Positions 6,845 to 49,000 of a stretch of 64,000 nt of DNA are shown here, one piece after another (the stretch's first letter is position 1; every line of letters starts with the position of its first letter). The translations under genes were made by a program, and so were the position numbers. This DNA is from Hypomesus transpacificus. Its lineage: Eukaryota > Chordata > Actinopteri > Osmeriformes > Osmeridae. The DNA is taken from contig NC_061075.1 of NCBI RefSeq assembly GCF_021917145.1, positions 7,556,968-7,620,967 on the forward strand. The letters run 5' to 3'. Under the pieces are notes generated by a model. It worked only from the letters and a program-made list of their open reading frames with translations. It was not told the origin of the DNA and made no database searches.

Positions 6845-18142
<11,298 letters not shown>

Positions 18143-19913: not shown

Positions 19914-20562
19914 TTAACTAAAGCCAAAACACCGAGAGGATTGGATCCCATTCCTAAACGCATGTCCTGCTTGCATGACTCCACATGAATAGCTACTGCT
20001 GGGGTTCCATTCCTCTGCAGAAACGTTCCAGATACCAGTGATGGTGTGGGTTCCATCTTGTTCCCTGGCTGTCAGAATAGAGTTTTGCTTTGGGTCCACC
20101 ACTGTGCTGTTGACCCACCAGGTCATGTCTGCGTGCGTTGGCTCTAGGCCACTGAGAACACACACCAACACTGGGGTGGTTCCATGGTTACCGTCCACTG
20201 AAGACAGGATGACAACAGAGGGATCAGTGCTTTGTAAACCTGTGAATAACAGACAAAAGACAAATTAAAACGAAGTTTCGGGGGAAATATTTGAGGGGTT
20301 ACCTTTGGAAGTCGAAACGTTTTCACAATGATTATTTCCTTAGTAAAGATTACCTTTCACAAAAAGCTCAATCCCTTTACTGAAAAATGCCTCCTTCTGT
20401 GTCTGCTCACTGCTGTATACACACCTGAGAAGACAATTTTATCATTAGAATAAGAATATCTGAACTATTAATATAATATGAAATGATACTATGATGTGAG
20501 TTATTTATTGGACAAGCTTACCTCAGTAGTAATAAAGTGAAAGCCAGCCTTCCTGTTGTCAT
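19914..20562 (-). CDS. Lambda-5/IGLL1-like protein: leader, J-like exon and Ig C1 domain
   Basis: Three exons on the minus strand: 20562-20522 (leader MTTGRLAFTLLLL), 20424-20354 (J-like) and 20239-19914 (Ig constant domain and stop). Junction phases agree, giving 145 aa. The J-like exon has its own splice acceptor and ends EAFFSKGIELFVK, which aligns with the F-G-x-G-T-x-L-x-V strand of Ig J segments, with Ser in place of the first Gly. The C domain has the canonical Cys64 and Cys123, Trp78 and an SYSC-VM--G motif as in lambda chains. A free Cys141 lies four residues before the end, where light chains bond to heavy chains. Sequons: NST (81) and NVS (109). Leader / J-like / C is the exon plan of lambda-5, the non-rearranging part of the surrogate light chain. 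Alternatives are pre-TCR-alpha (normally no J-like exon) or the J-C end of a germline-joined light chain. I am confident that it is an Ig-superfamily gene and less so of the name. Confidence 0.72.
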
Positions 20563-20689
20563 TTTCGCAGAGTGGGTCAAGTCACTACATGGGAGAAGAA
20601 AAAGTGCCTCTTGTTCTGAATCCAGCAAGCAGGATAGTTATCCAATCCTATGCCCCTTCGTCTTAAACTAGAGCGATTCCAAACACAAC

Positions 20690-20785
20690 CTCTCTCAAAC
20701 ACCCCCCACACACACTCACACACATACAGACACATGCACATTGGCACACACACAAACGCAGACACATAGACAAAGACACACACTC
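20690..20785. repeat. (CA)n-rich microsatellite
   Basis: CACA/ACAGACACATG units between the two Ig-like genes. Confidence 0.85.
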
Positions 20786-21334
20786 ATGTAGCAAATCAGC
20801 ATTGGCCTTTAGTTTACTTACCACATTTGAATGCTATATATGCTCCTCTTAACTTATACTTTTACAGCAGACTTTCTCAATTAAAAGAAAACATGCCAGA
20901 CCATTGAGGTGGAACAGCTTTGTTGTCCCAAAGGAGCCTCCTGTCTCTCAGGCTCAAAACAAGTAGATCAGTTATTCAGTTAGGAGGAGTATAGAAAAAA
21001 ACGTACCAACTGTTCTTTCCTGTTTTTCTGTCTTAAACAGATGTACGCTTATTAGGAAGCCATCCAGTGTGGAGGGTTTGGTATGATTCTGGCCAGAACA
21101 TAATCATTATCTGTCTTTTGAGTTCTAACTCAGTTAAATCACCTCTGCTGGTTTCCAATTAGTTAACTACTTATTGTGAGAATTGTGTTCAAGCCTTCAT
21201 GCCGAGTTCAACATTAAAACTATCAGCTGTAGCACTGTATGGAGGTGCATTCTATGAAGGAAGCCCGACTGAATCAGACTTCAAAACTACAGCAGAAGAA
21301 AAAAAATCGAAAACATCAAACATTTCAGTCAACA

Positions 21335-21340
21335 TTTATT
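21335..21340 (-). terminator. Poly(A) signal of the VpreB-like gene
   Basis: AATAAA on the minus strand (TTTATT on +), 50 bp after the stop codon at 21390-21392. It supports a transcript that ends within the V exon rather than always splicing onward. Confidence 0.65.
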
Positions 21341-21389
21341 ATCAAACAGATTTATGAGTGACAAAATCGGAAAGCCATGGCCCTCATCC

Positions 21390-22016
21390 TCACGGTCTCC
21401 TTTTAACATTCCCATCTCCATGGTAACCCAGTCCACAGTAATACACAGCTGTGTCACTCTCTGTCGATCCTTGGATCACCAGCTGATGGACATGTGGTCC
21501 ACTCTTGCCAGGCCGGGCGGTGAACTTGTCCGGTTGGAAGCCTTGGCCGTAGATGACAAGGAAGACGTTGGTCAGAGGGTAGCTCAGGATGAGCTCAGGT
21601 TTCTCCGCGTGTCTGTGTTTGTACCAGCTGAAAGTACTCTTGTTGAAGGAGATGGACAAGGGACAGTCAAGAATGGCATTTTCCCCCATTTTTACTGATA
21701 GCTTGCTGCTGGACTCTCCTCTCCATAGGCCTGCAACAGACAACATCTACTGAATTGTCGGTGCAATGACATTAAATATTTTTCCAACAAACGTCACTTC
21801 TAGCTATCATTCAATTCTTTTGGAATTAGGCTTCCATTCATTCATTTTATTCGTTTATTTGGAAATTAATAATACATTATTTTATTCGTACTGACTGGAA
21901 ATAAATTATGAACACTGTACAGCACTGATACAATATATGCTTCCATACAATGAAACATGTTATGGAGGAAAACACTTACCAAACAGCACACTTGACAAAA
22001 AGAGTATTCCTTTCAT
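21390..22016 (-). CDS. VpreB-like single Ig V-domain protein
   Basis: Two minus-strand exons: 22016-21980 (signal peptide MKGILFLSSVLF) and 21730-21390 (V domain and stop), together 125 aa; mammalian VPREB3 is about 123 aa. The domain has Cys35, FSWYK (Trp48), and SDTAVYYC (Cys111), all hallmarks of an Ig/TCR V set. After YYC it continues GLGYHGDG and a basic tail ending KRRP, with no FGxG J strand, no recombination heptamer or nonamer that I can find, and an immediate stop. A signal exon, one V exon and a short charged non-J tail is the VpreB plan. The lambda-5-like gene follows 0.8 kb downstream on the same strand. A GT (21393-21392) just before the stop could act as a donor and is phase-compatible with the J-like exon. 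Alternatives are a NITR-type receptor lacking its membrane exon, or an orphan V. Confidence 0.75.
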
Positions 22017-22043: not shown

Positions 22044-22738
22044 TGTGTGTGTGTGTTTTTGTTTCTGAACGAAAGTAGGCAGGTGTCAAACTAACTGAGG
22101 TTCCAAGTCTCTTGTTATTGTATTCATAATCCATAGCCAATCTCTGTCTGTGGTGGGACCAGGAAATATTTACCCCTTTTTTTGTTTTTTAACCCCTCCC
22201 TATTGTTATAGTTTATGAAAAGGAAATGTCCTGTGTCATTGTAAAAAAAAAGAAAGAGGATTTTTTTTAAGTCCCTTCACTGGAGACTATTCACAACACA
22301 AAAAGACTTTAGAGAGATTAGACAAACACACTCACCGTGTACTTTGAATATCTCCTTTATGTCAAAAAAGAGTACTCAAGCATAGAACAGTAGGTGACTG
22401 TGTCTTTGACAATAATCCCTTTAAAATTATGTGGCATTTAGGCCAGGTCTCCTTGGGTGAAAAGCAAACAAGGCGCCCTTCAGTTATACAGTTGCTTTCT
22501 ATTCAATATCTGTTTTCTAAAGCATGTTTCCTATAGTGTCACATTAGTGGTTGTTTATGGAAAACAGAGAGAAAGCAAGTAATTACAATACCTGCTGCTA
22601 GATGGAGCTAGACTAAATCTATCCCCACTTTTTCCGTTTCAGTTGTAGTGTAGCTGTAGGTAACTGCAACATGACAGGCCCCTCCCTTACCCTAAGTTTC
22701 TTTCCAGCTACTTTCTTTTCACCACCTGGGAGTTGTGT

Positions 22739-22934
22739 TACCTCAGGCCCTAGGGTTATTGTGACCCCACCGTCGAATTGCGACAACTTTACTTAAAAAT
22801 AAAGTGAAGCATTTTCTTTTAACCGTTGGGCTGTCTCTCACCCCCCACAGCGCGAGATTGTATTTGTTTTTTTATTGGTTAAAGTTGTTGCAAACCTTTG
22901 GGTCATTGTGACCCGAAGGCAGCACAAGGGTTAA
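22739..22934. mobile_element. piggyBac-type non-autonomous element (MITE)
   Basis: The right end read on the minus strand is TTAA then CCCTTGTGCTGCCTTCGGGT and CACAATGACCC. The left end (TAGGGTTATTGTGACCCC) is a diverged inverted counterpart. TTAA target sites and a CCCTTGTG start are typical of fish piggyBac-like MITEs. About 200 bp, no coding. Confidence 0.45.
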
Positions 22935-24346: not shown

Positions 24347-27338
24347 ATGGGAAACTCCAAGTCGTCTCAGACTACCCGCAATATCATCATTGCCTTACTG
24401 GCCCTCTGGTCTGTCATCTCCCTCATCATCATCGTGGTGTGGGCCACCACACCGGACATGAAGAACATCAAGGAGTGCCAGGCCAGACTGCAGAAGGTGA
24501 CTGTGGAGCTGGAGGGGGCCAAGGTGGTGTTTGAAAAGAACAAGGTAGCACTGGAGGAGATGGTGGAAGAGAGCAGGGCGAATCTGACCAGGCAGCGCCA
24601 AGAGATAGACCGTCTCCTGGAACGTCTGGGTAATACCAACACGTCCCTGGATGATTGTCGTTTGGAGAACGTGAGTGTTTGCCTTGATTTTCTGCCGCCC
24701 CCCTCTTCTGCCCTCCTTTCTCCCTTGCTCCCGTAGTCTTGAGGTCTGAACTGACTCACTCTCTCCTTCCTGTGGCCACAGTCATCCCTCTCTCCCTGCT
24801 TGTACTTGCCTCCCTCCTTCTCACAGAGATCTACATGCCAAAGACTTTTACTATTCACCTCGTAGTTTTATATTTTTCTAAGGAAGAAAAACCCAACACA
24901 GTTGTTTATCAACTAAACAAGCCATGACCAATACACAAGCAGATTTATCAAATGATTTGTTTTTGTTTTGATTGATAGCGGAATTAAGAGTAAAGGCCAG
25001 TGATGTAAAAGCCACATCTCACCTTTACATAACACGCACAGGCACAATGGATAGAATGAATTTAGTGCAGTCAGTTATGCAAATACCTTGGAAATTGCAA
25101 TCAAATTCAAAGCAGTCGTTCCTCTCATGGAGTGGGTAGGAGGTCAAGCTTGAGTCTTCCTGGAGACAGACGATAAGGCCCATTGCAGCACATGCACTCT
25201 GTTCTAAATACAAAGGTTATTGTCTTACATGTCCACACCAATTCTGTCAGTAAAATCTATCTTCTTATGTGGTACTATATCTCGTTATATACAGGTAAGT
25301 GTTCTTCTGTATAGTTAAAAAAATCCATCCCTGGGTCAAAGGAATGTTTTTTAACACAGTTCCTACAGCCATATCTCAGGCAGACAGATCTGCTTTCAGT
25401 CACAATTACAAATATGTGATAGCAGACATAAGCATGATATTGCCAGTGTCCCATCAGCCACTTTGATTGTGTTGAGAAATCGCTCAATGATGACATTGTC
25501 TTTTCAGGTAAACTTGAACTTGAACATCACAGTCTTGGAGAATGAAATTGAGAAGCATAAAGAAATGGAGGCGAACCTTACTGATGTAATCAAGCTACAC
25601 AAAGGTAGGAAAATTGTTGTCACAGTGGCTGGGTATGGGATTTTTGCCTCTGGTACTGGCTACCATGAAAGGAGCACTCTCTCTGCCATGATATTCTTAG
25701 CTACATTTTCCCCTGTAACCATGGAGACCGCTGAGTCAGAGTAAATAAACAAACATGATTGGTTAGTTATTGCACCTCAGAAAAGTCAGTAAAATGAAAA
25801 TACATTTTTTGAGAGGAAGACTAATTAGGAATTATGTAAAATTTTCAATCTTGGTTGGTCAGTGAAAAGTTACTTTAGTTTACCATTTTAAGCTTGATGA
25901 AAAAGTGGGGGTTAGAGGAATCAGGTAGTGGAGTATAGTGTTGGTTTGTGCTCTAGTTTTATCTGAATTACAATTAGAATATTATAATATGTCATAATTA
26001 ATGCAACATGTGTGCGAGAGTGACTACATGTGCAGTCTAGTAGAGGGACATTTCTAAGAGATTTCCTGACTTGGAATAAGCAAAGGAAGTGATGAATTCC
26101 CAAACAAAAAACGATAAACGGAAATTACATTGTGTTGAAGGTGGCTGTATTTGATAAAAATCAAGCACAAATGTGCTTGTACAAACACATACTTGATTTG
26201 GAAAAATGTAGTTGCCTGTGCTGGGAAGGTCCTACGACAACAGGATAGCCAGCATTTTTCTTATGGAAAAAACAGGCTAATATGTGAGTGAAACCCCTCT
26301 ACTGCCAGCCAGTTCCCAAAATAGTTGTAGTGACGTCATTGAGTCCTGCTCACAACATACTCTGATAAGTATTCACAGGGCCAGATATTGCCTTATAAGT
26401 GAATGCCATAATCCAAATATTCTATGTTACCCTATTTTAGATCAAAGACTATCTTCTAATGGATTGCCTGAACTGTCTTTTGAACATCAAAACATAAATA
26501 ACAGGCCGACCACCCCCCAAAAAACACTGACACTGTAAACTGTTTTTCACAGACAGTGGTTCATCTAACTTTAACTAACCCTATAAGTAATTTCACAGAT
26601 AAAAAGCATCTTAAAGATAGTTGTAAAGATATTGCTGTAAGGGCACATAAAAAAACAAAAATGAGCATGACTGCAAAAACAACAGTTAAACAATTGAACA
26701 ATTAAAGTTCACAAAAGCATATCACAATGTATATTAATCTGGTCTTGATGCAATTTCAGACAACATTGAGAACCTGCAGGAGAACTTGACCCAGGCGTCC
26801 CACCAGATGACGTCATGCCAGGCGCTGAACTCTGCTGCGGAGAGCCAGAAGCTGGCTGCAGAGAGCCAGACCAAGGCCTGTGAATCTAGCAAACTGTACA
26901 TACAGAAGCAGCTGTGAGTATCATCATAGATTACAAGAGCAGATGGGTGACTGGTGTGGATCAGATAAACAAACCTGACTAGTTTATACGACAGGAGTGT
27001 TTATCCTGTATCTTTTCTTTGTCGCGGTCCACAGGCTGAAATGTAGAAAGGAGGCCAATGGAGAACACTCCGAGTATGCAGATGATGGTTGTGTCACACC
27101 AAGGACGAGCATTCTTGCCCTAGCGGTGGTTCTTTGCACTTGTCTGCATTTGATAACATGTGAGTATGTTGTTTAGAACACAGAGCCAATCTTGGATGTT
27201 CAGCTCTCCTCTAGCTCAGTCTTTAGACACAAATCATTTGTAAATCTGTAAATATTTGTGAGACTGTACCATACTTTGTAACAGAAACACATAATGACAG
27301 ACTTTTATTTAATAACTGTATTTTCGATGTTTTCAGGA
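24347..27338 (+). CDS. Tetherin (BST2)-like membrane protein: N-terminal TM, coiled coil, GPI signal
   Basis: Exons 24347-24670, 25508-25604, 26760-26913, 27035-27159 and 27337-27338, total 702 nt or 233 aa, with phases agreeing. The start has an ideal context (GTCGCCATGG). Residues 1-12 are a short cytoplasmic end (MGNSKSS, also a possible N-myristoylation motif). Residues 13-33 are a hydrophobic membrane segment. Residues about 40-200 are a charged heptad-rich coiled coil with Cys44, 104, 160, 181 and 195 and sequons at Asn79, 98, 114, 131 and 149. After a small-residue stretch ADDG (207-210), residues 217-232 are hydrophobic and the chain stops one residue later, a GPI-anchor signal layout. 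The stop codon is split by the last intron (T|GA). Tetherin holds budding enveloped virions with exactly this doubly anchored coiled coil; PLVAP-family proteins share the N-terminal half but lack the GPI tail. The gene is near certain. The BST2 name is inferred from topology, since coiled coils carry little sequence signal. Confidence 0.7.
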
Positions 27339-31800: not shown

Positions 31801-33689
31801 GTGTCTTCTTAGAATCAAGGTCACCTTAAGAAACCTAAAACCTTTTGATGCTGAGGAAACTGCTGAGTTGGTGGTAAGAGACTTACCTAAAACATGACGT
31901 TATTTTACCTCTCCAAAATATGCATGGATTTTGACAATTCCTTAAGCAGAACTGCAAATCACCAATAGCTTAAGATTCACTCAATTAGAAAAGGCACAAA
32001 ATACACATTATGTTTACCTTGGGTGATTCAAAGGCATATGAAATTGGGAGACGGCTATGCAAATGTTGTGGTTGCCTGTCTTACAGGACAAAGCCAGGGA
32101 CAGGTATGGTACTGCCATTGACCACTGTCTTGAACTTATTCGGGACTATAAGATACGCATCGGTAAGAAAACAGCCTCAGCCTCACTAGGTAGCCCTCCT
32201 GGGTCTGTCTTTGCAATGTGGTAGTTGTTTCTGGTTCAAATGACATCAAAATACTTTATACTTGAAGTATCTTAGTATTTCATATTGTAGCAAAAAGAGA
32301 TTCTTAAACACTCTAAACTGCCATGTGTAAGTAAGACCTATTTAGGGTGACACCTTGTTTTCATCTGCACTAATCTACTAAATTGTATTGCTCATTGGGT
32401 GACATGCATATCTGGGTCATCCTTCATAGGCTGTGGTTCGTTTTCTGGTTCCCTGGTAGAGTATATTACAGATGACATCAGTAAGTTCAAAAGGCCTGTT
32501 CTTCCATGACAGATATAATTTAATTTATTCATAACACTTCATAGTCTTAGAGGTGAAGTTCTTGTATGAAAGTAATTTTCATTCTACTCTGTCCAAGAGG
32601 CATTCCATTGAGGAGGCTTTATCTGAGCTCACCCAACAAGAACATTTTGAAGGACCACAAGTCACCAGTTGAGCATCAGAACATTAGCAGCCCCTGTACC
32701 CAGGACGTACACTCCCCTGACCAGGAAGTACACTCCCCTGACCAGGAAGTACACTCCCCTGACCAGGAAGTACACTCCCCTGACCAGGAAGTACATGCCC
32801 CTGACCAGGCAGTACACCCTCCTGACCAGGAAGTACACGCCCCTGACCAGGCAGTACACCCCCCTGACCCGGAACTAAACAGTTGTAAGGCCGCTCACAA
32901 CTGCAATAATGAGAAAATGGTGCACTTCATTGTCAGAGAGCGGGGTTTGGAGGGGCACCTTCAGGTGAGTGAGATATCAAAATCAATGTTTCAAGAGTTG
33001 AAAAACCAGTCTACAAAAAGACAAAGATGTAGATTACCTATGCCATTCATGATTCTTTCAAAAAATAGTTTTATCCCCATCTTTTCAACAGGGCGTCATC
33101 AGTGGCAGTGTGTTATCTAAGTGGCTTCAGGCCTACAAACGACGCAGTCGCAAAGTTGTTAAAACCTACATTGAGGATGACGAGCAACTGGACCAGATCT
33201 TCTACTACCTGAAGGATGTTCTGGAGAAAGCATCTCCTTGTTTATCAGAGTTGGAGAAGATCCACTTCATTTTGGATGTTCTCTTACCAGAGGTGACTGG
33301 ATGCTGTTAAGTGTTATTGTCGTGAGGGAGATGGCAGTTAAATTGTGTGTTAGTCGCTAGGGGTTCATCATATTTTTATATGAGAAATGAAAATGCGTAT
33401 TTGTCTATGAAAATCTTATTTTCAGGCAGTCATCCATGGAATCTCTGTGGTTGAAGGTATATCTGTCAAAAAAGCAGAAGATAAGTACATGCAGTGGCCT
33501 TTTGTCAGTGAAAGGTAAGTGGCATTTAGAGACCTTCAGTATCTGAAACATTCTCTGTGCCGTTGTTAAATTTGGTTTAAATTTACTGGGAACCATTTTT
33601 TTTATCTCTTCAGAGAACGGAAAGAGTTTGACTTCATGATTGCTAAGCAGATGAAGAAATGGCACAACATAGATAACAATAACTTGTGA
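28873..33689 (+). CDS. pwwp3a: PWWP domain-containing DNA repair factor 3A (MUM1/EXPAND1)
   Basis: A nuclear chromatin reader known in mammals to bind nucleosomes and work with 53BP1 at DNA breaks. Coding exons: 28873-28929, 29019-29089, 29173-29243, 30181-30683, 30815-30857, 30984-31148, 31258-31322, 31439-31524, 31813-31873, 32087-32162, 32430-32480, 32600-32964, 33092-33292, 33426-33514, 33614-33689. They total 1980 nt, or 659 aa (human about 710). The N-terminus has a Tudor/PWWP-like strand (FNWKGKQWPAKVL). The middle is a low-complexity linker. The PWWP domain starts near residue 304 (VCVWCKVRGFPYWPAM) and ends near KPFDAEE, followed by IRDYKIRIGCGSFSGSLVEY, diagnostic for MUM1. The C-terminal helical region includes FILDVLLPEAV and AEDKYMQWP, the family end. 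Residues about 450-505 are a coding minisatellite. Start chosen at ATGGAGTCATCAGAATAT because it gives the conserved Y-L---W-----WPAK. Confidence 0.92.
32701..32868 (+). repeat. 21-bp coding minisatellite in PWWP3A, eight units
   Basis: Eight in-frame 21-bp units encode heptapeptides of the form QEVHSPD, later QEVHAPD and QAVHPPD. They are followed by a degenerate PELN. The first four units are nearly identical and the last four alternate, which suggests stepwise duplication. The segment lies in the linker between the PWWP domain and the C-terminal helices. Confidence 0.95.
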
Positions 33690-34006: not shown

Positions 34007-34058
34007 AGAACGGGGTTTCGTTGCCAGCGTGCAGCACAATCTCGCTTCTTAAAGCAAG

Positions 34059-37000
34059 ATGTCAGCGCCTATGGAAATAATTGTGACTGCCGACTCGGCT
34101 GGGCAACTTTGGAATTGTGCAGTATTTGAGCTCCATTCCGGTACAAATCTACTGACATATCGTGGTGGTAATAGCTCTTCAAGGTCCCTGACTGTTCTGA
34201 ACGGAGAATATATTCTTGGAGCCCAACTCGGGAAAAACTTCATCAACGTGTGGGAAATCCAAAGAAAGGTAGCGTGTTTTTAGCTCACTACGTGTTAGTC
34301 AGCGTGTGGTCCATATGTAGCCTAGCGGTTGATGCTCAGTTATGCTGCAACGTGACAAGCCCATACCTATCTAAACACTAGCTAAGATAACTGGCAAGGT
34401 AGGTAAACTGCTGCATAGTTTATCTACCGGTTATCTGGATTGCTAGTTAACGTTAGCTGTGCTTTATTCAATAATTGACTGCCAACCTTTTTTTGTTTAC
34501 TACAGAATCAGTTCTATAGAAACTATCCCGCTTCATCATGATTTGTCTTAAAATACATTTGTCTTTCTATTTTTCTCAGGATCAGTTACAACAGAAAATT
34601 GTGTGTCCTGGGATTGTAACCTGCCTGACTGCGTCTCCCAATGGATTGTACCTCGTTGCTGGGATTGCTGAAGCTATTTACTTGTGGGAGGTAAGTAGCA
34701 CGTAGTATTTCACTGCGTCCATCTATAGTCTATCTCTGAAGTAATGCCCTAACCTATTGCATAGAACCAAGACTGGCAGACCATGAGAACTTTTCAGACT
34801 GTACATTTGTCAGTGTGCCTTTGAAACCAATAAGACCATTTACAAGTGCCTCATGATTGCTTACCTGTTTCAGGTGTCCACTGGGAATTTGCTGGCCATC
34901 CTGAGCCGTCACTATCAAGACTTAACCTGTCTGCGGTTCACCGATGACAGTAGCCATTTTATCTCAGGGGGCAAAGACAACCTGGCACTGGTGTGGAGTC
35001 TGGCCAGGTACAGTCCTCTGTCCCTCACTCACCCCCCATATAGAAGTCAAGATATAGCATTTTTGACTGCGTCAGTCTGTTACAGTATGTTTGGTCTCTT
35101 GACACTGGATCATCTAATCTGAATGGTTTGTAAGGTGATTTACTATTGTACAGCTTATCAGATCTGAGAAGTTCAAGTCTTTTATTGTCCGATGCATATA
35201 ACAACACAGGGTCAGACTGGGCACTGAAATTCTTCGGACAGGATTTATGTAATGCCAGGTTGCTTTGCGTTGAACTGTATGTGCACACTGCATATGGTTT
35301 TCAGTGATCTGTCATTTAACAGCCAGCAGAAGCCTGATAATGAACCATTCTTTTGGATTAGGTGTGTGAAACGTCTAAAACATGTAGGGCAAGGGATCCC
35401 AAGGACCAGGATTGAGAAAGACTTGCACAAGAGTTGGATGAAATTAAATTGTGATGAGAATTGTTTTGCTTTCCTTTCACGCCACTAGGTGGCAGTGTCA
35501 GACTTCTATTGCAAGTTCAGGCAACCACAGACCGGTAGACCGGTTTCAGTTAAGGATGCCTTTTTTCCTCTGGGCACTATTCCCTTTACCGTGTGGTTAC
35601 TAGGGGTGGGAATCTTTTGGTACCTCACGGTTCGATTCAAATAGATTCTTGGGGTCATGATTCGATAAAAAATTTAATGAATCAAATTTCGATTTAATAT
35701 ATGCTTACATTAGATTCCTGTTTAGTGAAAATAATCCCAATGCATCAAAACCTTTTTTGATGAGTTTAGTAAGTAAATAGAAGACTGAATCGCGATTCAA
35801 ATGCAAATCGATTCCCCCCCACCCTTATTGTTCATTGTGACCAAAAGAACACAGAAAATAACACACATGATGACAGGACAGACCCTTTGCATGTTAGGGG
35901 AGGGTATACACTTTATATCAGGTGAAAAAACGGCCTGATATAAGCTTGTATCCCCTCTGTAACATTTGCTAGAAAAGAGCAGACATCTCCAGATTATATC
36001 AGGTTGTTCATTGTGACCAAAAAGAACACAGAAAATAACACACAGGATGGCAGGACAGACCCTTTGCATGTTAGGGGAGGGGGTACACGTTATATCAGGT
36101 GAAAAACAGCCTGATGAGGGGTAGGGTCTTACAGTATCGGTCTGGGGTTAATTTGGAAATGTTTTCTGCATTCACACATCTGTCTGTTACATACCTGTGT
36201 CTTTGATAGCAAATTATACAGTAGACAAAATCATTAGGCATTAAAGGGTGTTATGTAATTATTTATTTTTTTGAGCACACCTGAATTGCACACCTGAATT
36301 TTGTAACATCCGTGTAACTGATTGATCTCATCCCAGTTTTCAGTGGCTTGAGGCCTGGGAAGGTGTTCTTCTTGTTTTTTTACTTCAAATTCATGATTGG
36401 TATGGTTTAGTCGCAATCTGTGACTTGGAGCCTTGCAATGAATGCCTTTTTTTTCTTCTGTGCTACTGTAGTTTCAAACGGCTTTATTCCACAACTAAGC
36501 CGATTTCCCCCTTTTGGAGTAAGCTACTCTACATTGCAGTAGAGTACTGAACGCTGTTTGAAATCTTTCTATATTATTAACTCTTGAAATTCCTTCACAA
36601 GTGCAAAATAATGTGATTGTCAGGGCTTCATTGATATGAGGTCTGCTCTGTTACGGTACTTATGCATAAGAATACCCCCCTGGACAGCCTAGATCCTGTT
36701 CATGTATTGAAAGTGAGCTCGAGGTCCCTTGACTACTTCAGTCAGTCCTTCACCTGGTCACCTGAAACTCTTTGTTATGGCATGGACCTGAATGTTAAAC
36801 AAGTCCTTTATGATTTTTTAATGTCCTTTTGATGAGAGAGGTTGGTTCAGATCTCCAAAAAGGACACAGTCCTTGACTAATAATACATTGAAAGGAATAC
36901 TGGGAAGTACATGAATCCGTGCTGAATAATGCAGTGTATTTCTAATTCTACACGTCGAATGGGTGGGAGGCGATGTGGAGACGTCTTCGTGGTGGGCCGT

Positions 37001-40000
37001 TGCAAATCCCTTTCTCTTGGGTAGGCCTCGTTCAGCAGTCTCTGCTTGGTGACCATGTTTGCACATGGAGGCAGTTCACTGTGGTAACACGCAAACACAT
37101 TTTCTTTACTTAGTATTGATGGACCGCCTTTGTTCTTTTGGGTAACGGTGCCTTTTTAATTTTTAATTTCAAGAAATCAATGAAAGACTGGAATGAGACA
37201 GCTAAGCACATTGAATTAAAAAGTCCAAAACAAAGGCCTAGATCAGTCACTTTTGGAAAGCCAAAAAAGTTTGACTAGGGAAGGGTCAATAGGGAATACG
37301 GTTCAATTGGGAAGTCCAAAAAGTTGTTTCACTGGCTTTGACCTTCCATTCCTCAAGGGACACAGCGGAGCGCAACGTAGCATGAAAAGTAAAGTGCTTC
37401 GGGTGCCGCCAGAAGAATGTTTAAACAGCCACCAGCCTGCTTTGGGTAATGCACCTTTCACCTGTGAAGGATGGCCTGCCTTGGTCCACGCATCAATATT
37501 AAGTGGCTTTCATCGACCACTTCCTAGGGTGAATGAATGAGCGTGGCTCGAATCGTCTACAGTAGCTGTATGCTGAGCTAAATTATGAGCAAACAAATTG
37601 GCACAAAAAAAACGATGGAAACCAGCTGGAAGTCTGTGAGGAGAAATACAAGTTTGTTCGATATCTCCCTCAAAGCCACAGCCTCTCCCCCCCCCCCCCC
37701 CCCCCCCCCCCCGCCGACTCCCATCCCCTCCACCCCCACTCTGTGTCTCTGCACATGCCAGGACTGCGGGCCATGCGCTGGCGGGTCCCTGTGCATCAGT
37801 GCTGTATGTCGCAGATGTTTCCACAGACAGGTTGCCCCTGAGATCTTGCCAGGGCTCCGGTGTTTCCCGCCACCACGCTGACAGAATGGGGCCTGGGTCC
37901 CCTCTTCTTTCATCAACGCAAGCCCCCCTCCCCCCACCTTTCTCCTTCTGTCCCTTGGATTCTTCTACCTGATACAGCTTCTTCCCCCCCCGCATCTCTC
38001 TTTCTTTCTTTCTTTCTCCCCCTACCCTCCTGTTCCTGGCAGGTTGTGGCCTGGTACATGCCAGAACCAGTGAAAGCCCTGAGCTAGACTGTGTGTGCTG
38101 TGGAGGCTTTAATTGCATTTTTCAGCCCAAATGCTCTCCCTGCCACAATCCAGGAACACATCGTCGTATTGAAACTCCTGTATGCCTGTGGAAGCCAGAG
38201 CGCAAATAAACAGGAGAGAATGTCATCATTTAACCGAACGATGCAATCGTTTCGGTGTGTGCACAATACAGTTGCATTACTAATGCTAATGACTAGCAAT
38301 GCTGCTGCTAATAACTGTTCAGTAACTGTAAGTCCTCTGGTGTTGTGTTGCCAGCGTGGTGCAGCTGGACCAGTCCCACACCCCGGAGCCTCGCCACGTC
38401 CTCACCCGTCACTCCCTGCCCATCACAGACATCCACTGCGGCCTCATGGGACCTCAGGCTCGCGTCGCCACGGCGTCCCTGGATCAGACCGTCAAGGTGA
38501 GCGTTCTAGTTTGAAACTTGAAATAGTTACAACTCCAAAAAGCAGTTTGGAGTCATCTTTATGGATTTTATGGGTCTGGGATGCGGAATGGTATTGTATA
38601 CATGTCGTATATATGGGCTGATGAAAATGGATGAGCATTTTAATAACATCACTGTTGTAGACAGACATCTGCCAGATCTTTGTGTCAACAAACTGTCGAG
38701 ACAGATCCTCGACCTGTCAGAACTGTATTATAAAATATTCTCCATTTTGATTGAAAGTCTCATGTACGGTACTCTAGAAATCAACCTTGTAGGCATAAAA
38801 ACTACAAGTATATTTGTTTACAAACCATCTTATCGCAGCAGATGTGTCAGCTTATGACAGAAATTGCCAGAAAACACAAAAAATAATACACGAATACCTA
38901 ATAAGCTACACCACAGGGTATTAAGTTTGAAACTTAGAAATTCATCAATCCAACAAGCAAAACCCTAATGCATTGTTAAGCATCCTTTTAATTACGTGGA
39001 CAATTAATGACACAAGTTTTACTCGTGAGTTTGACTATTTACCACAAGTTTTATTCGTTTTCACTTCCCCTGTCAAACATTGAACAGACCTTTAATGATA
39101 TTTTAAATATGAAAGTGGCCAAGGAGCTTCCTAAATGGAATGCGTACGTACATCACAATCTCATTCGGAGGGTAATGGAAGGTGACCCCGGAGCAGTCGA
39201 TGCCTCTCAAACGAAATTGGATTACAAATAATCAGTTCTCCTGGTTATGCAAAGTGTTGCAGCTGTTTGCCCTGGGTGGGGAGCCAGTCCACTCGGACTA
39301 GATTGAGAGGAGCGTCCTCATGTGGATCGATGAACCTCTGGGATGAACGGCCGTCAGTTAGCGGTTTAACTGTATCTTATAATTGAATAGGTAAAATACC
39401 TTTTTTTTTTCTTTTTTTACTTCAACATGTCCGGTAACCATTTATTGTGCCATGAATACACAAATCAAGTTGTTATATCTGTGTGTGTGTGTGTGTGTAA
39501 AAGTCAGCACCTAAAATGTTGTCTGGGTTTAGGCACACTGTATGATCCTGGCATTTGGAAGCCCCACAGTACAACGTCTGGTCTAAATGCAAACGTCGGT
39601 GATGTGAACTCGCTTTGTTTTCTTTCCACAAGGAAGAGAGGGAAGGTAATTCTAGCATGAAGCCAGCCGGTCACGGGCTTGTAGCCTTATCTTGCATTTC
39701 TCTTCCATTTTATTCACTGTGTGATGCAATCAATACCCTGCCAACCGGCTGTAAAGAATGTTTAGCTGTGTGTGGAGGCTGTGCCGGGTTGTGTCGAGGG
39801 GCACAGTAAGAAACAGGAACCACCGGAAAGTTCCACAGCCTTCACAATACCAACGTTTGACAGCGCCTCAAGTTTGACAACCAACTTTTCCACCAGTGAG
39901 TCCTTTACCTTTAGTCTTGTGCAATGTGCACACCTATTTCTTCAGTAAAAACAGGGGACCACGCGTTGCTATGTTATTCGCTTCTAGGTCCGTGACAAAC

Positions 40001-43000
40001 ATTTCCCATGTGAGGTACGAGGCCAACCGTTCCCGTGGAGACGACAAGGGTGATTTAACAATAACGTTTATAAGTAGTCATGAATGTCCAACAGCCATAA
40101 AGTTTGACAAGCCTTTAGAGGCTATGAGACAAGGTATTCCATGAGAGAGAGTGAGTGTTTCATCAATCCATCACGTCAAAGAGCCTTCCGCGGAACTTTC
40201 ATGCTCTCTGTCATTGACTCTGTGTTGATAGGATTTGTAATGAGGTAATCAGGCCTGTTAAATGACAACAGCAGGCATGACTGATCCAAGGGCTGTTCCC
40301 TGCGACGTTTGTTTTTGTGGAAATTGACTTTTTCGGGAATGAGGGCGTGACCAAATTTGATGGGCTGACGAGTCAGGAGCCAATGGCGGAGTGAGGTGTG
40401 GGATAGGGGAGTCCCTTGACGTGAGGGAGCTCAATGTCAGCGTCAATGCCGTTTGTAGTCTCTAACAACCTGCGGCCTCCTCGGGGGGGGGGGGGGGGGG
40501 GGGGCCTGGGGAGAGGGTGGCGTAAGGCTGGGAGAGGAGGAACTGGATTTTGCAGACTAGTTTTGAAGAGGTCAGAGGTGGTGCTAGTGAGAGATGACTT
40601 ATTGTAAATGCAGCCATGGTGACCAGAGTGTCGGCTTGTTTGACTTCTCGTCCGAACATGCCGTGATCAGATCGCATCGTCTACTCCGCCTCCAAATATT
40701 CCCGTCACAAGTCGATATCAAAGTTTTGAGCATTAAGAGTTGACAGCCATCATAACATGACGTTTTCCACGCGTTGATTCTACATATTCAAAATCATTTG
40801 GTTCCCTTGCGTCCAGCCTCCTTATCCTAGGCGGCTCACCCTTCTGCCTCCTGGAATGTTTTAAGAGCGTCCTCAGGTTTCCTTCTATTCAATCATTATT
40901 TTTCTGATCTTTCTCTTCAGTGTGAATGTTCCCTCCAAACCCTTTTCCCTCTGGCCCTTGAGGTACAGGCATGCACGCCTGCTGTGAATGCAAATATTAA
41001 TTAAGCGATGAAGGCAAGTGGTGTGAACAGAATAAGCCCTCATGCTCTGTGTTTGATGTCTGTCTCTTTCTCTCTCTCTCTCCCTCTTTCCCTTGCCCTC
41101 TACTTCCACCTCCTGAGACAGAGAGAGAAAAAGGGAGTACCAGAGTGAGAGACTCAGTGAGAGACTGAGGGAGAGACTGAGGGAGAGAGTGAGGGAGAGA
41201 GGAGAGAGGTGTGTTTTGAAAGAGAGGAGTGTGTGTCTCCACACTGCTCTCATGCGAGGCCTCAACGCTCTGATTAGCTTTTTGACTTGCTGCGGTGACT
41301 GGCTGACGGCTACCAGCAGCTCCGTGATGAAATCGCTCCAAGACTTTCTTTTGGCCAGCGCTCCTTATCGATTCGTTATAGATAGAACGCCATCTTGCTG
41401 GCGGCTGACACAACTCTTGGAAAACAGAGCAACAATTCAGTCTGTCGAGGTCAGTTGAGTGAGTTCAAAACATCCCCCGTCACCGTGCTTACCTACAGTC
41501 AACCAGGCTGGGGATTCTTATTTAATGCCTGCTTAGCCTGCACATGAACTGTCTATGTATTAAGCTGCTTTGTTGACAGAAGTTAAGCACAGGTGATGAT
41601 CATTTTGTAGTGTGTAGACTATGTTCCATGTCTTCTGTTTTTCTACCAGTAAAAACCTTAGTCCTTCTTGTTCATGCTGAAGGACCGGCAGGAGACACAA
41701 GTATTCCTCTGAGATGGGATTGTAATGCGCATGGATCAATGGGCGATAGATCATGGTCTTGTCTCGTTTCATCTCTTAAGAGTCGCGTTGCAAATGATCC
41801 GTGAACAACATTAGACACCTGCTCAGGGCAGGAGCAATCTTTTGAACAATGTCCCTGTCCATGAATTGTGCATGGAGTCAGCTCTAATGAACGTCTTCTT
41901 CTTCAATGCTTCATTGTCTTCTTATTTAATGCTTCATTCTTATGTTATCTTAATAAAGTACTTGACATTCATATCAAATTGCCAGACAACACAGTGAACA
42001 CTCTTTGGATGTTTCTGCTGGATGTGGAAGGGGTATTGGATGGCTTGATGTACATAAGCAATCCAGTACCTTGTTTACATTTAGTTTAAAGGGAATCGGC
42101 TTATTGAAGTTGTTAAATATTGATTAAGACAGTCTGGTGTAATCATAAATGGAATGGGTAAATGCTCTCCACTGTACAGAAGTATAAAGAGCTTCTAGCC
42201 CTGAAAGAATGATTTATTTTCGACATTTTCGAAAGCCTACATTGGGAGAGGAACATGGAGGACAGGAAATGATTTGTTACAATAGGATACAGATATCATC
42301 AAAGTTTCATAAATGGCCCAAGTGGGGCTTTGATCATTATGACTCAGCTTTTCCTCCCAGTGGGTTTGTATTTAATTGACAAGCGGGGGTAGTGTCCGTC
42401 CCCTTTCATATTGAAAATGGTATCTTAGCACCATCACAGCGGAATGAGCAGTGCACTGTCTTCAGTACTTATTGCCAATATGCCGGCTATATTCATTCTT
42501 TTTTTTGGGGGGGGGGGGGGGGGGGGCCTAATGTTCATACATTTATTATTTGGAGTGATTCACATTGCATATTTGTTAGATATGAAACAAGGAAGAAAAC
42601 TGTGTGCTATCGTGAAGTTAATATGTTTGTATGTTGTTAAATTCTATATAGTTGGTCTTGAGTTTGTATGATTGTACATAAAGAAGGTGGCTGTGGTGAG
42701 AGGATATTTTAATTACTAAAAGATCAAAGGTCAAACAATCCTCTCGTGGCAAGGCCTGCTTTTATTAAACAAGTTTCGTTGCATGTGCAAAATTAATGCA
42801 CTGCGTTATTATTTTGTGCCGTGGCCAAAAAGTTCCCTTTTTTATTTGCCCTAATTTTGCCCCGAAGTACTCTTCTTTTGTCTTTGCTAAATATGATTCC
42901 TGTTCCTTCTAGATCAAATTGGTCAGCTCTTCATGTCATCATGTTCAATATCATCAGCTTCTCTATGGATTACAGGCTGTCAGTCTCTTCTGATAAATAT

Positions 43001-46000
43001 CTCCTTCCCTGTCGAGGACAGGGAGTTGGATCGTTGGCCAAAGGAGAAGTGGAGGTCACGCAGGAGAACAGAGCTTATTAGCAAGGAGGAGAGGCTTTCC
43101 ATAGCTTTCCAACCCTATGACAGAATGTGTAAACCCTCCTTTCCACCTAATGAAAGTTGAATCATCACGAGTCAATGTGATAGAGGTATTCTGTGGAAAC
43201 ACACATTTTATTAGTTGCTGCATATGGTCGAGTCAACAGGATGTTATGGTTGGTTGTCTAATACTTAAGAACATCATAATATAATCATAATATAACATAA
43301 TTTATATTATATTTAAACAACCCTCTATCCAGGGCTTTGTTATAATTGTTTTTCTGCTGTGGGGTAAATCACCGAAAAAGCATTCCTTATACAAAACGTG
43401 CCTCAAGTCACCAAGCCTACTTTTTCCAAGTACTTTACAATCCAAAAATCTGTTACCTCAGCTTCCCCCCCCCCCTCCCTGTTCTCCACAAGCTGTAGTA
43501 ATGAATTAGCTTGGGGTTTGATGAATGACCATCTAGATCTTGGCAAAAAAATGTTCGGTGTCATAACCACTAAATGATTTGATCTATCTATGTCATTAAG
43601 TTGAGTCTGGAACAGAAATGTGCAGAGGTTCTGCAGACTGAAATGGATTTTCGAGCCTTGAGGTATGAAACAGCCCACCTCTTAAAGACAGACAGGGTCA
43701 TGATCTTCGTTGTGGCGTGTGCTACGCTGACACGCACCTCGCTGTTACTTTTCTTCTTCTTTTTTTTTACCTCGCTTTCTCATTAATTAACTTGAAACAT
43801 GAAACTTGATATGGTCTGGATTTGGTCACTCTTCATACCTAGACGTTTACCAATGAGAGGATAATCTCTCTCTCTCTCTTCCTCTAGCTCTGGGAGCTGT
43901 CATCGGGCGAGTTGCTCCTGTCTGTCCTGTTTGATGTGGGCATCATGTCAGTCACCTTTGACCCCTGCGAGTACTGCCTCTTCTCTGGCGGCAGTGACGG
44001 CAACATATTTCAAGTGTCCCTGTGCAGCCAGGTAAGTCTTGTGTTCTGTCTGCAAACCTTAGCCTGGACATTTATCCCTGAACCTCGACTGATGAATGGC
44101 CCTTTAATGCTGATGTTTAAAGATGACTGTTCACTTATTTTCGAAATATTACTTTGTCATCTTTACAGGTAGTATTCTATTACGTCCTATAATTGTTGTT
44201 GTAACAAGTCGTTTATTCTGTATACATAGGGTTGACAGTTACGATTTATTGCAGAGGGCTTTTTAAACAAGGCCTGTTCACATATCTTTAAAATTCACCT
44301 GACACTTCATTTCATGTCTCATTAAGGTTTACTCTGAAAGCACACATAATGTAGCTGTAACAATGCATTTCATTTAATGTATTATACATGATTTTAGAGT
44401 GCTTTTTTGTACTTGTTTACCTGCTTGTGTTTTGCTAGTTGTGGGTAGTTGTAAGGACCAAGGGGAAAATAACATAAGCAGCTGTCCTGCCAGGCTGATA
44501 GATCACTCATCAAGCCTTACCTTTTGATATACATTATGTGGCATACATTCAGGACAGTTGGCTCTAAGGATTTTTGTATTCATGTGTCATTCTTTTGCAG
44601 TCATAACGCTTGGCGTCACAACCAGCAGTGCATATTAATAAAGTCCTTTAGAACAAAATCTGAAAAATGTAAGAAACCTCCAACAAACATTAAGTTAACT
44701 TATTGCTTTATACAATAACATCTGTGTTTAGTTTTTTTTCACACAAAAGCACAAAGAAAATCCCCTTGAGGTCAGAACAGTTGAGTAACAGGAATGTGCA
44801 TCAAGAAGGTCAAATAATCCATCACCTGTTTAAAGTTAACCCTACTTCTTCTTTTATGTGAAGTCCCAAGGTCAATTGGAAAATTCCTAGTTATTTTTTG
44901 TGTCTTGTTAGTGTCTTGAAATATCATATTTATTTCACAAGAGGGTCTCTTGTGACGTCTTTAGTTAATCCTATTTTTATTGCTTTCCTACAGGTACACC
45001 TGCACTTAGAGATTAATGTTGTGTAATTTTAACTTGTTTAACTACATGCTCTTATGGTTTCTTCCCTTTAGCACTATTTTTTGGTTGTTCACAATATGTA
45101 CTTCTTCTTTTTGACTACCCGCAATGCTGTGGGGCTATCTTGTTGTTATTATCAGTGACCTATGCACTTTGTAAAGTTCTCTTGGAAGTCGCTTTGGATA
45201 AAAGCGTCTGCTAAATGAATAAATGTAAATGTCTCTATAAGGAACAGAAAGCTCCTTGATGTACTTCTTTCAGAGCTGACTTATTTAGTTTACAAAGTTT
45301 GTTGGCAAACACTTTAAATATTTAGGGATAAGTGAAAATGGTGGAGTCAGAATACACTCTTAAGGAAACCAAACTGCGAGGATAGTTGAGTGATAAACTT
45401 TACCCTCTTACTGTAATCCCACCCATCATTCTTGATGCTGCCATTTTGTTTGTGTCTACTGAGCACAGCTTCTTCAGACGCTGGGGAGGGGAATAGCCAA
45501 TAACTGTAAAAAAACAAAAACAAATTGTTTTTCTATGAAATCATTGTCTTCGTCACTATGGTCTAGTGACTAGTCTATTGCTTTGAGAAGCACTTTAGAA
45601 GCACTGCAGTGAGAGGAATCCTCCTCAAGCATTTGGCAAGAAAGTTGTGGAGGCAAATGTAAGTGAAATTACAATAGGGTCCTCCTGACGGAGGAACCCT
45701 AATGATCTAGCATGTTTTGATGTGTTATTGATGTAAATCAGCACGGGTCGTCCTGAGCATTCATTGCTCACACCCACCTCCGGTTAATGAAATGTAATAA
45801 AATCTTAGAGGCTCTTCAACGTTTGCCACATTATCAAGGTTGCCTGAACACGACTCAAAGGGTTCCAGCTACCTTCTTTCTTTTGTCCAGTAAACTTTAT
45901 GTACTTCGGGTAACACCACTAAAACAATAGTTTGGTAGAAAAAAAAAACACTTTCATTCGTTTCCATTACAGAACAACTTAATCCTCTTTTAAAATGTCC

Positions 46001-49000
46001 TTTCGCTCACCCTGGCCCCTTGCAGCAGCATCAAAACTGGGAACCCAAATGAGTCAACAGGCATGACTGATCCCCCCCCTCCCCATGGCACCCACATCAC
46101 GATAGAGGCATCATGCCTTCCTCCTCTCCTGATAAGGCTTAGAAACTGCTGAACGACTCTGGAACTCTCACCCCATTTGCATGTCATGTATCCATGATCC
46201 ATCGCATTACATTTCCTCTATTACACTTCCATATGCAGCATCACATTAGTTTGTCATGCCCCCGCCCGCCTTTTCACATTAGTTTGTCATGCCCCCGCCC
46301 GCCTTTTCCCCTTCATACCACAACTGGTGGCACTGGGGTGGCATGCTCGTAGAACATCTTTACAGCTGGTTTCCCCCCTCCTGAAGGGGTTAGAGTGTAG
46401 TGTAGAGTCAAATTGTCACTGTCTAGCAGGGTCTGACTAATTAGTTCTCTCACTTACCACGTTGGGCCTGTAGGTCTTAAGTCTACTTTCCCACTAATGT
46501 GAAGACGCCCTGGGTTCTAGGTAGCAGGGGATGGGAAAAACCAGGACAGATTTATTACATTGAATGCTATACTTGACATGATGAAAAGTGAAAGTGCTGC
46601 AAAAATACTGTATAAAATGAGTGCCAGTGCAGTAAGAAAATGTCACTTGCTAAGATTTCTTAAAATATTGTGTAATTTCCTTAAAATCAAGTCACGGGAT
46701 AAGCCAACTCGAAACAAGTCCAGCTAGGTTTATAGATGATCACACTCAGATGTCGAGTTTTTGCTGTGTGTGCTTTCCTACTAATGTGACAACGCCCGTA
46801 ATGTAGCAGGGGTTTTCACGAAGCAGGAAAAGAAACGGGACAGATTTTTTTATTGTTAAATTGAATGCTGTACTTGACATGAAAAGTAAATAGTCCTTTG
46901 GGCTACAGCAGTAAGAGTCACCAGACAGTGTGAAACTCTGGAGGGGTTAGAGGGGTCCGTGAAAGGTCCAACTCAATCTCTCGTGGTTGTTTTACCACTG
47001 GTCTTTATTCAGGCATGTTATCTTTACCTTGTCAGCTTTGACTGGAATGGAATGGGTTTGACATCCTGAAGAATGGCTGCTAAATCATAGATGAAACATT
47101 CGATGAAAGATTGAACGCAAATCATCTAATGGATTCATATTGAAGTTGTCTGGCTGGCAGCAATTATTGATACGGAACTGACCAGTTCAAGACTTGCTCA
47201 AGCGCTGCTCAATTGACTTTGATTTCTAACAGCCGTCTGCTTGAACTTAATTATTTAGGTAAGCTATCCTCCTGAGGATCAATTGGATAGTAATTAAGGT
47301 AATTGGAGAGAAGCCTGCTTTTAGAGCCTCAGGTGTAAGTTGAAAGTACAATTGATTATTTTAATAAAGAAGAAAAACGTGTTTGCAATTAAAACGTAGG
47401 AATTCAGTTAAATACTCTCTGTATTCTGCAGCACACCTACGCTACCTTGGCTAGGATTAAAGATATCGTCAGTGTGGTTACATTTCAGCATTTTATTTAG
47501 GCCTTGCTTTTTAAGCTCAAACGCTCCATCCTCCCCCCTGGTCGCCCCGAGCGCTCGTGGTATAATGATCTATCTTATTATGCCGCGCTCTCTGTCATTC
47601 ACTCTAAAGGGATTCCAGTTAATCTGAAAGTCATTCTTTCCGTTTTTGTGATTGAGAATGGATATCATGTTGTTTTCCTTCCGGAAAGATTTGCATTTTG
47701 ATGCATAGTTTCTCACTTCCCTTTCCTTTTTTCGTTTGTTGGTTTAATCCCATAAGCTCATGAGCTGTGATAAAGATGTTGGCCCTTTTTCTCGCTCAAA
47801 CGACTTGTCTTCGGGACTTGTTGAGTCGTGAGTTGACAGAAGTATACTAGGATTGCTTTGGGTCATCAGGCCTTAAAGCTAGCACTTGCCTTTGGGAATA
47901 TGTGGACATTTTGGATTCCTGTGATGGTCTAAAATGTTGTCGCACTGTGGACAGAGAGGATACCTAGCTGGAGCTGGTATATAGAGTTCTCCAATGCAGC
48001 AAGATCTGCCACTCTCAGCACTCTTGACAAGTTCATAAAAGAATGTCTTTTGTTTCCTAGACCACAGAAGTTACATTTTGATGTTGTTTGAACCCTGCAT
48101 AAACCCTGTTAGTAAGCTTAAGTTTCTGTATTAGTACAATAATGTTTTTTTTTCTCGTCACGTTGTAGCTTATATATTAAGTTAAGCATTCTGTCATCTT
48201 TCTGCCAGCTCTACATGAAGGCTTTCAAAAAATATTGTTGGTTTTTCCAGCAGGACTTTTCCTGCTCCCGTAATAGTGCTGTTTACCCAAATGGAGAGCC
48301 TTGTTCATTTCCTAGACAGCCTAAAGTGTCCATGGATTGGTGTTAAATAAAGCGGATTTCTTACCCGGCCATAGCCATTTGATCCCCTGGGCAGAACGGA
48401 CGATGTGATGAGTGTGTCAATGCATGGCAGTCTTTAACTCCACCAGTTGGGGAGATAAAGGCTACATCTGAACGGGTGCTCTGTTGTTCTGTATTTTGTT
48501 TAAATACATTTCGTCTTTCCAATACTTTTTTACAATATATATATATATACAGTGCCCTCCAAAAGTATTGGAACAGTGAGGCGAATTCCTTTATTTTTGC
48601 TGTAGACTGAAAACATTTGGGCTTGACATCAAATAATGAACGTGAGACCAGAGATCAACGTTTCAGCTTTTATTTCCAGGTATTTACATCAGGATCTGAT
48701 GCACAACTAAGAAAATATCACATTTTGTTTGAATCCACCCATTTGTCATGTGAGCAAAAGTATTGGAACAGATATACTTAAAACATATTTAAGTGAATAA
48801 GACTTAATATTTAGTTGCAAATCCTTTGCTTTCAATAACTGCAGCAAGTCTGTGACCCATTGACGTCACCAAACTTTTGCATTCTTCCTTTTTGATGCTT
48901 TCCCAGGCTTTCACTGCAGCCTCTTTCAGTTGTTGTTTGTTTTGTGGGGTTCCTCCCTTCAGTCTCCTCTTAAGCAGGTAAAATGCATGCTCTATAGGGT

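Follow-up and report, generated by a model that had tools for sequence, protein, structure and literature searches.

A sid1-type V gene and a lambda-5-like gene side by side in a smelt: a candidate surrogate-light-chain-like pair

The surrogate light chain of eutherians consists of VpreB (VPREB1/2), a V domain without J, and lambda-5 (IGLL1), which carries a J strand and a C1 domain behind a leader of its own. The mammalian VpreB has eight of the nine strands of its domain, and the ninth, which comes from lambda-5, is necessary and sufficient to fold it; the core of lambda-5 folds the CH1 domain of the heavy chain and its C-terminal cysteine bonds to CH1, the glycosylated CH1 of IgM being folded in vitro only by the whole complex (PMC12859133). 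In fish, no counterpart of VpreB or lambda-5 had been reported by 2013, according to a review of that year (PMC3570791). By 2022, the zebrafish genes sid1 and si:ch211-1a19.2 had been proposed in print as the counterparts of VpreB and lambda-5, respectively, with a 2018 paper being cited for naming the latter lambda-5-like. The two zebrafish genes are adjacent and have the same orientation (PMC9614664), and both belong to one expression module of B-cell precursors that are positive for rag1/2 and dntt. In zebrafish kidney, sid1 marks a lymphoid-progenitor cluster together with rag1 and rag2 (PMC10948150), and in medaka it is found in rag1-high, dntt-positive B precursors (PMC11759298). The present study deals with two genes, A and B, in a stretch of 64,000 nucleotides of the smelt Hypomesus transpacificus (contig NC_061075.1, positions 7,556,968 to 7,620,967 of the forward strand; hereafter the window). 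They are most likely the smelt counterparts of sid1 and si:ch211-1a19.2, and their products most likely form a heterodimer in B-cell precursors that resembles a surrogate light chain.

A first-pass annotation of the window had taken a fish version of the surrogate light chain to be new, which was wrong, as the zebrafish pair had already been proposed as VPREB1/lambda-5-like. Like in zebrafish, the smelt locus combines a V gene, whose Osmerus relative is named sid1, with a C1 gene that lies next to it on the downstream side and points the same way; the differences are the smelt lineage and that gene B is matched to its zebrafish counterpart by position only. An exon anatomy with a J-like strand and a C-terminal cysteine is absent from the published passages on si:ch211-1a19.2 that were compared, and among the papers listed in the literature searches none was recognised as dealing with this pair in a smelt or with its binding or loss. 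The smelt window contributes another lineage of fish and the structure of the half that resembles lambda-5; it is not a first discovery. In a non-teleost fish, the sterlet, a convergent VpreB/lambda-5-like role has been suggested for the IgL sigma genes by their discoverers, who described them as an atypical light-chain locus (PMC5985310), and the smelt pair can be likened to these genes by description only.

The two genes and their relatives

Gene A (22016-21390) and gene B (20562-19914) are both represented by intact models on the minus strand, together spanning 22016-19914, with 827 bases between the stop codon of A and the ATG of B; splicing was predicted from the sequence (Table 1). Exon phases and splice sites are mutually compatible in both models, and the V exon and the C1 exon are each entered in phase 1, as is the pattern in immunoglobulin (Ig) genes. 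Pfam recognises a V-set domain in A (E 5.6e-10) and a C1-set domain in B (E 3.2e-10), both passing the curated cut-offs, and when the six frames of the whole 64 kb were scanned with patterns, the sole V-type and the sole C1-type match were these two genes, the patterns being so strict that divergent domains could escape them. The first-pass annotation had reported two minus-strand genes 0.8 kb apart in the order and orientation of the mouse VpreB1/lambda-5 pair, and its coordinates proved exact. Its exons, phases and domain cysteines were borne out by the gene models and Pfam, and both of its plans stand: a signal exon and a V exon with a short charged non-J tail (14 residues, no J) in the upstream gene, and leader, J-like and C1 exons, as in lambda-5, in the downstream gene, the model of which is intact and has the C1-set match just given.

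Gene B encodes a protein of 145 residues, made of a leader, the product of a J-like exon that ends in FSKGIELFVK, and the C1 domain. Its likeness to J is genuine but partial: FSKGIELFV fits four of the six positions of the consensus F-G-x-G-T-x-L-x-V, and when the exon peptide was shuffled 100,000 times, 0.37% of the shuffles reached at least four. Taken alone, this resemblance in sequence is modest, and it gains weight because it is sited directly before the phase-1 junction to C1. With human lambda-5, BLASTP gives 41.6 bits (E 5e-10 in this single comparison, identity at 26 of 118 positions, 7 gap positions) in an alignment that spans the J-C junction, beginning with FSKGIELFV on FGSGTQLTV and closing at the C-terminal pair of cysteines. 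The cysteine spacings of gene B and lambda-5 are 36 and 37, 59 and 59, and 18 and 18, respectively, and the spacings of 59 and 18 are also those of Ig lambda; in Ig kappa they are 60 and 20. Because of the lambda-5 spacings, the C-terminal cysteine and the alignment across the J-C junction, the VpreB/lambda-5 plan is stronger for gene B than the first-pass annotation had stated. From the J-C part of an Ig lambda light chain, gene B differs by its own leader exon, its degenerate J motif and the lack of a recombination signal at the J exon. By its position and orientation beside sid1, as described for zebrafish (PMC9614664), gene B is very probably the counterpart of si:ch211-1a19.2.

In Smith-Waterman comparisons, the J and C parts of gene B reach Z values of 17.5 with lambda-5 and 16.7 with Ig lambda, 3.7 with pre-T-alpha, and 2.2 with T-cell receptor (TCR) C-alpha. 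A membrane span is expected neither in A nor in B, because no stretch of 19 residues after residue 22 is hydrophobic enough, the best Kyte-Doolittle means being 1.30 and 1.05 at a usual limit of about 1.6. These data bear on the proposal that gene B encodes a partner of TCR beta like pre-T-alpha. In its favour are the C1 domain without a V domain of its own and the statement of the 2013 review (PMC3570791) that pre-T-alpha was yet to be found in fish. The proposal is nevertheless hardly tenable and was rejected, as the Z value is low, the cysteine spacings of pre-T-alpha are 60 and 28 instead of 59 and 18, and gene B has no transmembrane segment.

Neither the 3' edge of the V exon nor the 5' edge of the J-like exon carries a site resembling a recombination signal; there are four signal-like sites with up to four mismatches in 5 kb, where 2.03 are expected from 100 shuffles, and none is at an exon edge. 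The strict canonical J pattern has zero matches in the six frames of the whole window. An ordinary rearranging light-chain cluster was rejected because recombination signals are missing from the 3' end of gene A and from the J exon of gene B. The locus could also be a dead or dying V-J-C cluster that has no present function, and indeed V, J and C have the order of a light-chain cluster, the J motif is degenerate, and a search of the protein collection with gene B returned 13 candidates, none of them at E 0.001. Such decay is very improbable, however, as the reading frames, the splice sites and the cysteines of both domains show no damage, gene B has its own leader, the gene A homolog of Osmerus is 89% identical at unchanged length, and both genes are expressed in zebrafish.

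Gene A encodes a protein of 125 residues with a signal peptide and a V-set domain with two cysteines (35 and 111), and it ends 14 residues past YYC with the tail GLGYHGDGNVKRRP, which has three basic residues, one acidic residue and a pI of 10.0. Since the Osmerus eperlanus protein named 'secreted immunoglobulin domain 1' by NCBI is 89% identical over 125 of 125 residues (E 3.4e-70; one match among two candidates in the protein search), gene A is, by sequence, almost certainly sid1; the tails of the two proteins differ by one change, G to R. A PDB search with an E limit of 1 gave 4036 sequences, and among the best 60 of these the top places are taken by antibody constructs that contain more than one V domain (46.9 bits summed for the best). 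A TCR V-alpha 12-2 chain reaches 38.6 bits and NITR11 reaches 34.0, the scores of antibody light chains go up to about 34, while VpreB1 reaches 12.4 bits in a local run with the database size set equal to that of the PDB search. The V half thus is not closest to VpreB1, with which it scores lower than with TCR-alpha V, NITR and antibody V domains, and gene A is therefore VpreB-like in plan and not in sequence. The scores are in line with PMC9614664, according to which most hits of zebrafish sid1 are TCR chains. An AlphaFold model of gene A that was made from two sequences had a mean pLDDT of 42.5 and was not used. NITR proteins are built of one or more V domains, a transmembrane part and a signalling part; membership of gene A in this family was rejected, as it has no transmembrane or signalling part and the stop codon and AATAAA directly follow the V domain. 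By descent, the V domain itself may or may not fall within the NITRs or another receptor family, the scores being compatible with either.

The higher scores with TCR-alpha V12-2 and NITR11 than with VpreB1 would also suit a secreted innate Ig-domain protein of the TCR/NITR-like V type, in which the resemblance to VpreB is superficial. The NCBI name points in the same direction, and so does the relatedly named zebrafish sid4, which rises in fins after rhabdovirus infection (PMC2997011; sid1 is unmentioned in the excerpt) and, under transport stress, is up in liver at the 0 h time point (PMC3677916). Given the induction of sid4, it is conceivable that the sid genes have an innate role, the link to sid1 being by name. 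A purely innate protein is quite improbable, however, in view of the expression of sid1 in zebrafish B precursors that are positive for rag1/2 and dntt and in medaka cells that are high in rag1, and of the lack of any NITR-like transmembrane or signalling part in gene A.

As another alternative, read-through splicing might also join A and B into one V-J-C chain, which then would be a germline-fixed light chain. A donor-like GTGAGG does overlap the stop codon of gene A, in phase 2 as accepted by exon 2 of gene B, but this donor is weak, scoring 0.59 as compared with 3.1 to 6.3 for the three modelled donors and ranking 34th of 317 GTs (scores from an approximate matrix). Moreover, the polyadenylation signal follows at once, phase agreement is a one-in-three chance, and a search with the fused V-J-C chain returned 241 candidates, none at E 0.01, and a fused chain is hardly to be expected.

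A possible joint function

The sequences show that the V domain of gene A follows a leader, lacks the ninth strand, which is the J strand, and has no recombination signal on its 3' side. In gene B, a J-like strand precedes a C1 domain of the lambda type, and a cysteine occupies the position of the one through which lambda-5 is bonded to CH1. The two proteins are inferred to pair because A lacks the strand while B has the strand and the cysteine in the right places. In the mechanism that best explains the locus, gene B would lend its strand to gene A by beta-strand complementation, as has been shown for lambda-5 and VpreB, the C1 domain of gene B would fold onto the CH1 domain of the heavy chain, with a disulfide through Cys141, and the complex would thereby allow heavy chains to be tested before a light chain exists. 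This mechanism is given a probability of roughly 0.55. The pair shares with the eutherian one the V domain without J next to a J-C1 protein with its own leader, the order and orientation of the genes, the lack of recombination signals, the lambda-5 cysteine spacing and the C-terminal cysteine; it differs in that gene A is not closest to VpreB1 by sequence. It is probably analogous to the eutherian pair and separately evolved, and it may perhaps have originated from a teleost light-chain V-J-C cluster by loss of the recombination signals and gain of a second leader.

The wider claim would be that teleosts evolved a surrogate light chain of their own, apart from the eutherian one, in which a V fold of the TCR/NITR type is completed by a lambda-type J-C1 strand and heavy chains are tested before light-chain rearrangement; this is tentative and somewhat doubtful. 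If it were true, beta-strand complementation would be a checkpoint that was invented twice, and if heavy chains are tested in this way in fish at all, the checkpoint is either older than thought or was invented twice. The question whether heavy chains are tested by a stand-in light chain in fish goes back to 2013 at the latest, when it was listed as open (PMC3570791), and there is disagreement about the zebrafish candidates. The smelt pair shows the mechanically relevant parts, which are the donor strand beside a lambda-type C1 domain, the position of the CH1-bonding cysteine and a V domain without the strand.

Several points weigh against a surrogate light chain at this locus. The tail of gene A is short and basic (14 residues, pI 10.0), whereas that of the eutherian protein has 30 residues and is acidic (pI 4.8). 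The unique region of lambda-5 is nearly absent from gene B, which has about 10 residues before the J strand (end of the leader set by eye), and the GPRC motif of lambda-5, as given in PMC9614664, was not found in gene B; in mammals, the unique regions matter for secretion and antigen contact (PMC12859133). Zebrafish igic1s1, too, has been called a predicted IGLL1 homologue (PMC6365377), and the induction of sid4 by a rhabdovirus, described above, also belongs here. Above all, PMC9614664 rejects the zebrafish genes as VpreB1 and IGLL1, favours VpreB3 for sid1, and cites work according to which zebrafish have no distinct pre-B stage. The grounds given there are the overall similarity, the absence of a motif of the unique region, the genes that flank the pair in zebrafish, which are unlike those in tetrapods, and the reported lack of a pre-B stage.

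If that assignment were transferred to the smelt, gene A alone would be a VpreB3-like chaperone of the endoplasmic reticulum for nascent heavy or light chains, and gene B a separate lambda-like protein with which it has no joint function. Gene A has in common with VPREB3 the single V domain and the short tail, VpreB3 itself being without a substantial tail, and zebrafish sid1 was put into the VpreB3 branch of a tree, with its length being noted as well (PMC9614664). VPREB3 stands outside the surrogate light chain, though, whereas gene A has a J-C1 partner gene 0.8 kb away, and the J-like strand and the lambda-5 cysteine geometry of this neighbour would be left unexplained, as would the single zebrafish expression module of both genes. 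A VpreB3-like role of gene A alone is thus considered unlikely, and a jointly acting pair remains the preferred explanation.

The regions upstream of the two genes were scanned for seven motif classes, the sites discussed being chosen after the fact. Before gene A there is one CCCTAGGG (0.09 expected), an EBF-like palindrome, and there are two E-boxes (0.86 expected), one of which lies close to the palindrome (Table 1). Before gene B there is one E-box (0.65 expected) and there are two TATA matches (0.6 expected); the remaining motif classes have no match in either region. The upstream motif evidence for both genes is weak.

Features of the locus and the surrounding window

Table 1. Positions of the gene pair and of further features in the window
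Feature	Position	Strand	Description
Gene A (sid1 ortholog), exon 1	21980..22016	-	37 nt; start and most of the signal peptide MKGILFLSSVLF; phase 1; donor GTAAGT
Gene A, exon 2	21390..21730	-	acceptor TTGCAG; V-set, Cys35 and Cys111, non-J tail GLGYHGDGNVKRRP; including stop codon
Gene A, polyadenylation signal	21335..21340	-	AATAAA, 50 bases past stop
Gene A, donor-like site	21388..21396	-	GTGAGG
Gene A, upstream sites	22723..22755	-	CCCTAGGG and E-box CAGGTG, 27 bases apart; 739 and 712 bases upstream of the start codon
Gene B (candidate si:ch211-1a19.2 counterpart), exon 1	20522..20562	-	41 nt leader; phase 2; donor GTAAGC
Gene B, exon 2	20354..20424	-	71 nt; leader end, short linker, J-like strand FSKGIELFV; leaves phase 1; donor GTAATC
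Gene B, exon 3	19914..20239	-	C1-set; Cys64, Cys123; Cys141 near C terminus (SSRCFGFS); including stop codon
CAMK4-like gene	9544..18142	+	limits by eye
Long CT-rich simple repeat and minisatellite	15644..15971, 16597..17036		in and beside the CAMK4-like gene
Next gene beside gene A	~24347..27176	+	starts MGNSKSSQTTRN
PWWP3A/B-like exon piece	33053..33307	+	C-terminal domain, E 1.8e-18
WD40-type exon pieces	34053..52030	+	
Tc1/mariner transposase-like frame	48807..49880	-	358 codons; likeness by eye

On the other side of gene A, the next gene encodes an N-terminal hydrophobic stretch and a coiled coil and has no Pfam match above cut-off. In zebrafish and medaka, si:ch211-1a19.3 adjoins sid1 (PMC11759298), and the smelt gene, which stands at this position, is possibly its counterpart, a candidate by position.

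Before the pair, in the order of the window, lies a CAMK4-like gene. Four of its exon pieces, all short, have matches to Pfam Pkinase that stay below the cut-off (E 0.07 to 3e-7), and its C-terminal kinase piece matches human CaMKIV with 66.3 bits. The minisatellite in or beside it would be proline-rich if read on the minus strand. Matches to Rfam at the gathering threshold and tRNAs are both at zero in the window. Beyond the exon piece that matches the C-terminal domain of PWWP3A/B, there are WD40-type exon pieces, which we take to resemble WDR18; one joined stretch matches WD40 with E 3e-10, and the first piece has no Pfam match. On the strand opposite to these pieces lies the open frame that resembles a Tc1/mariner transposase.
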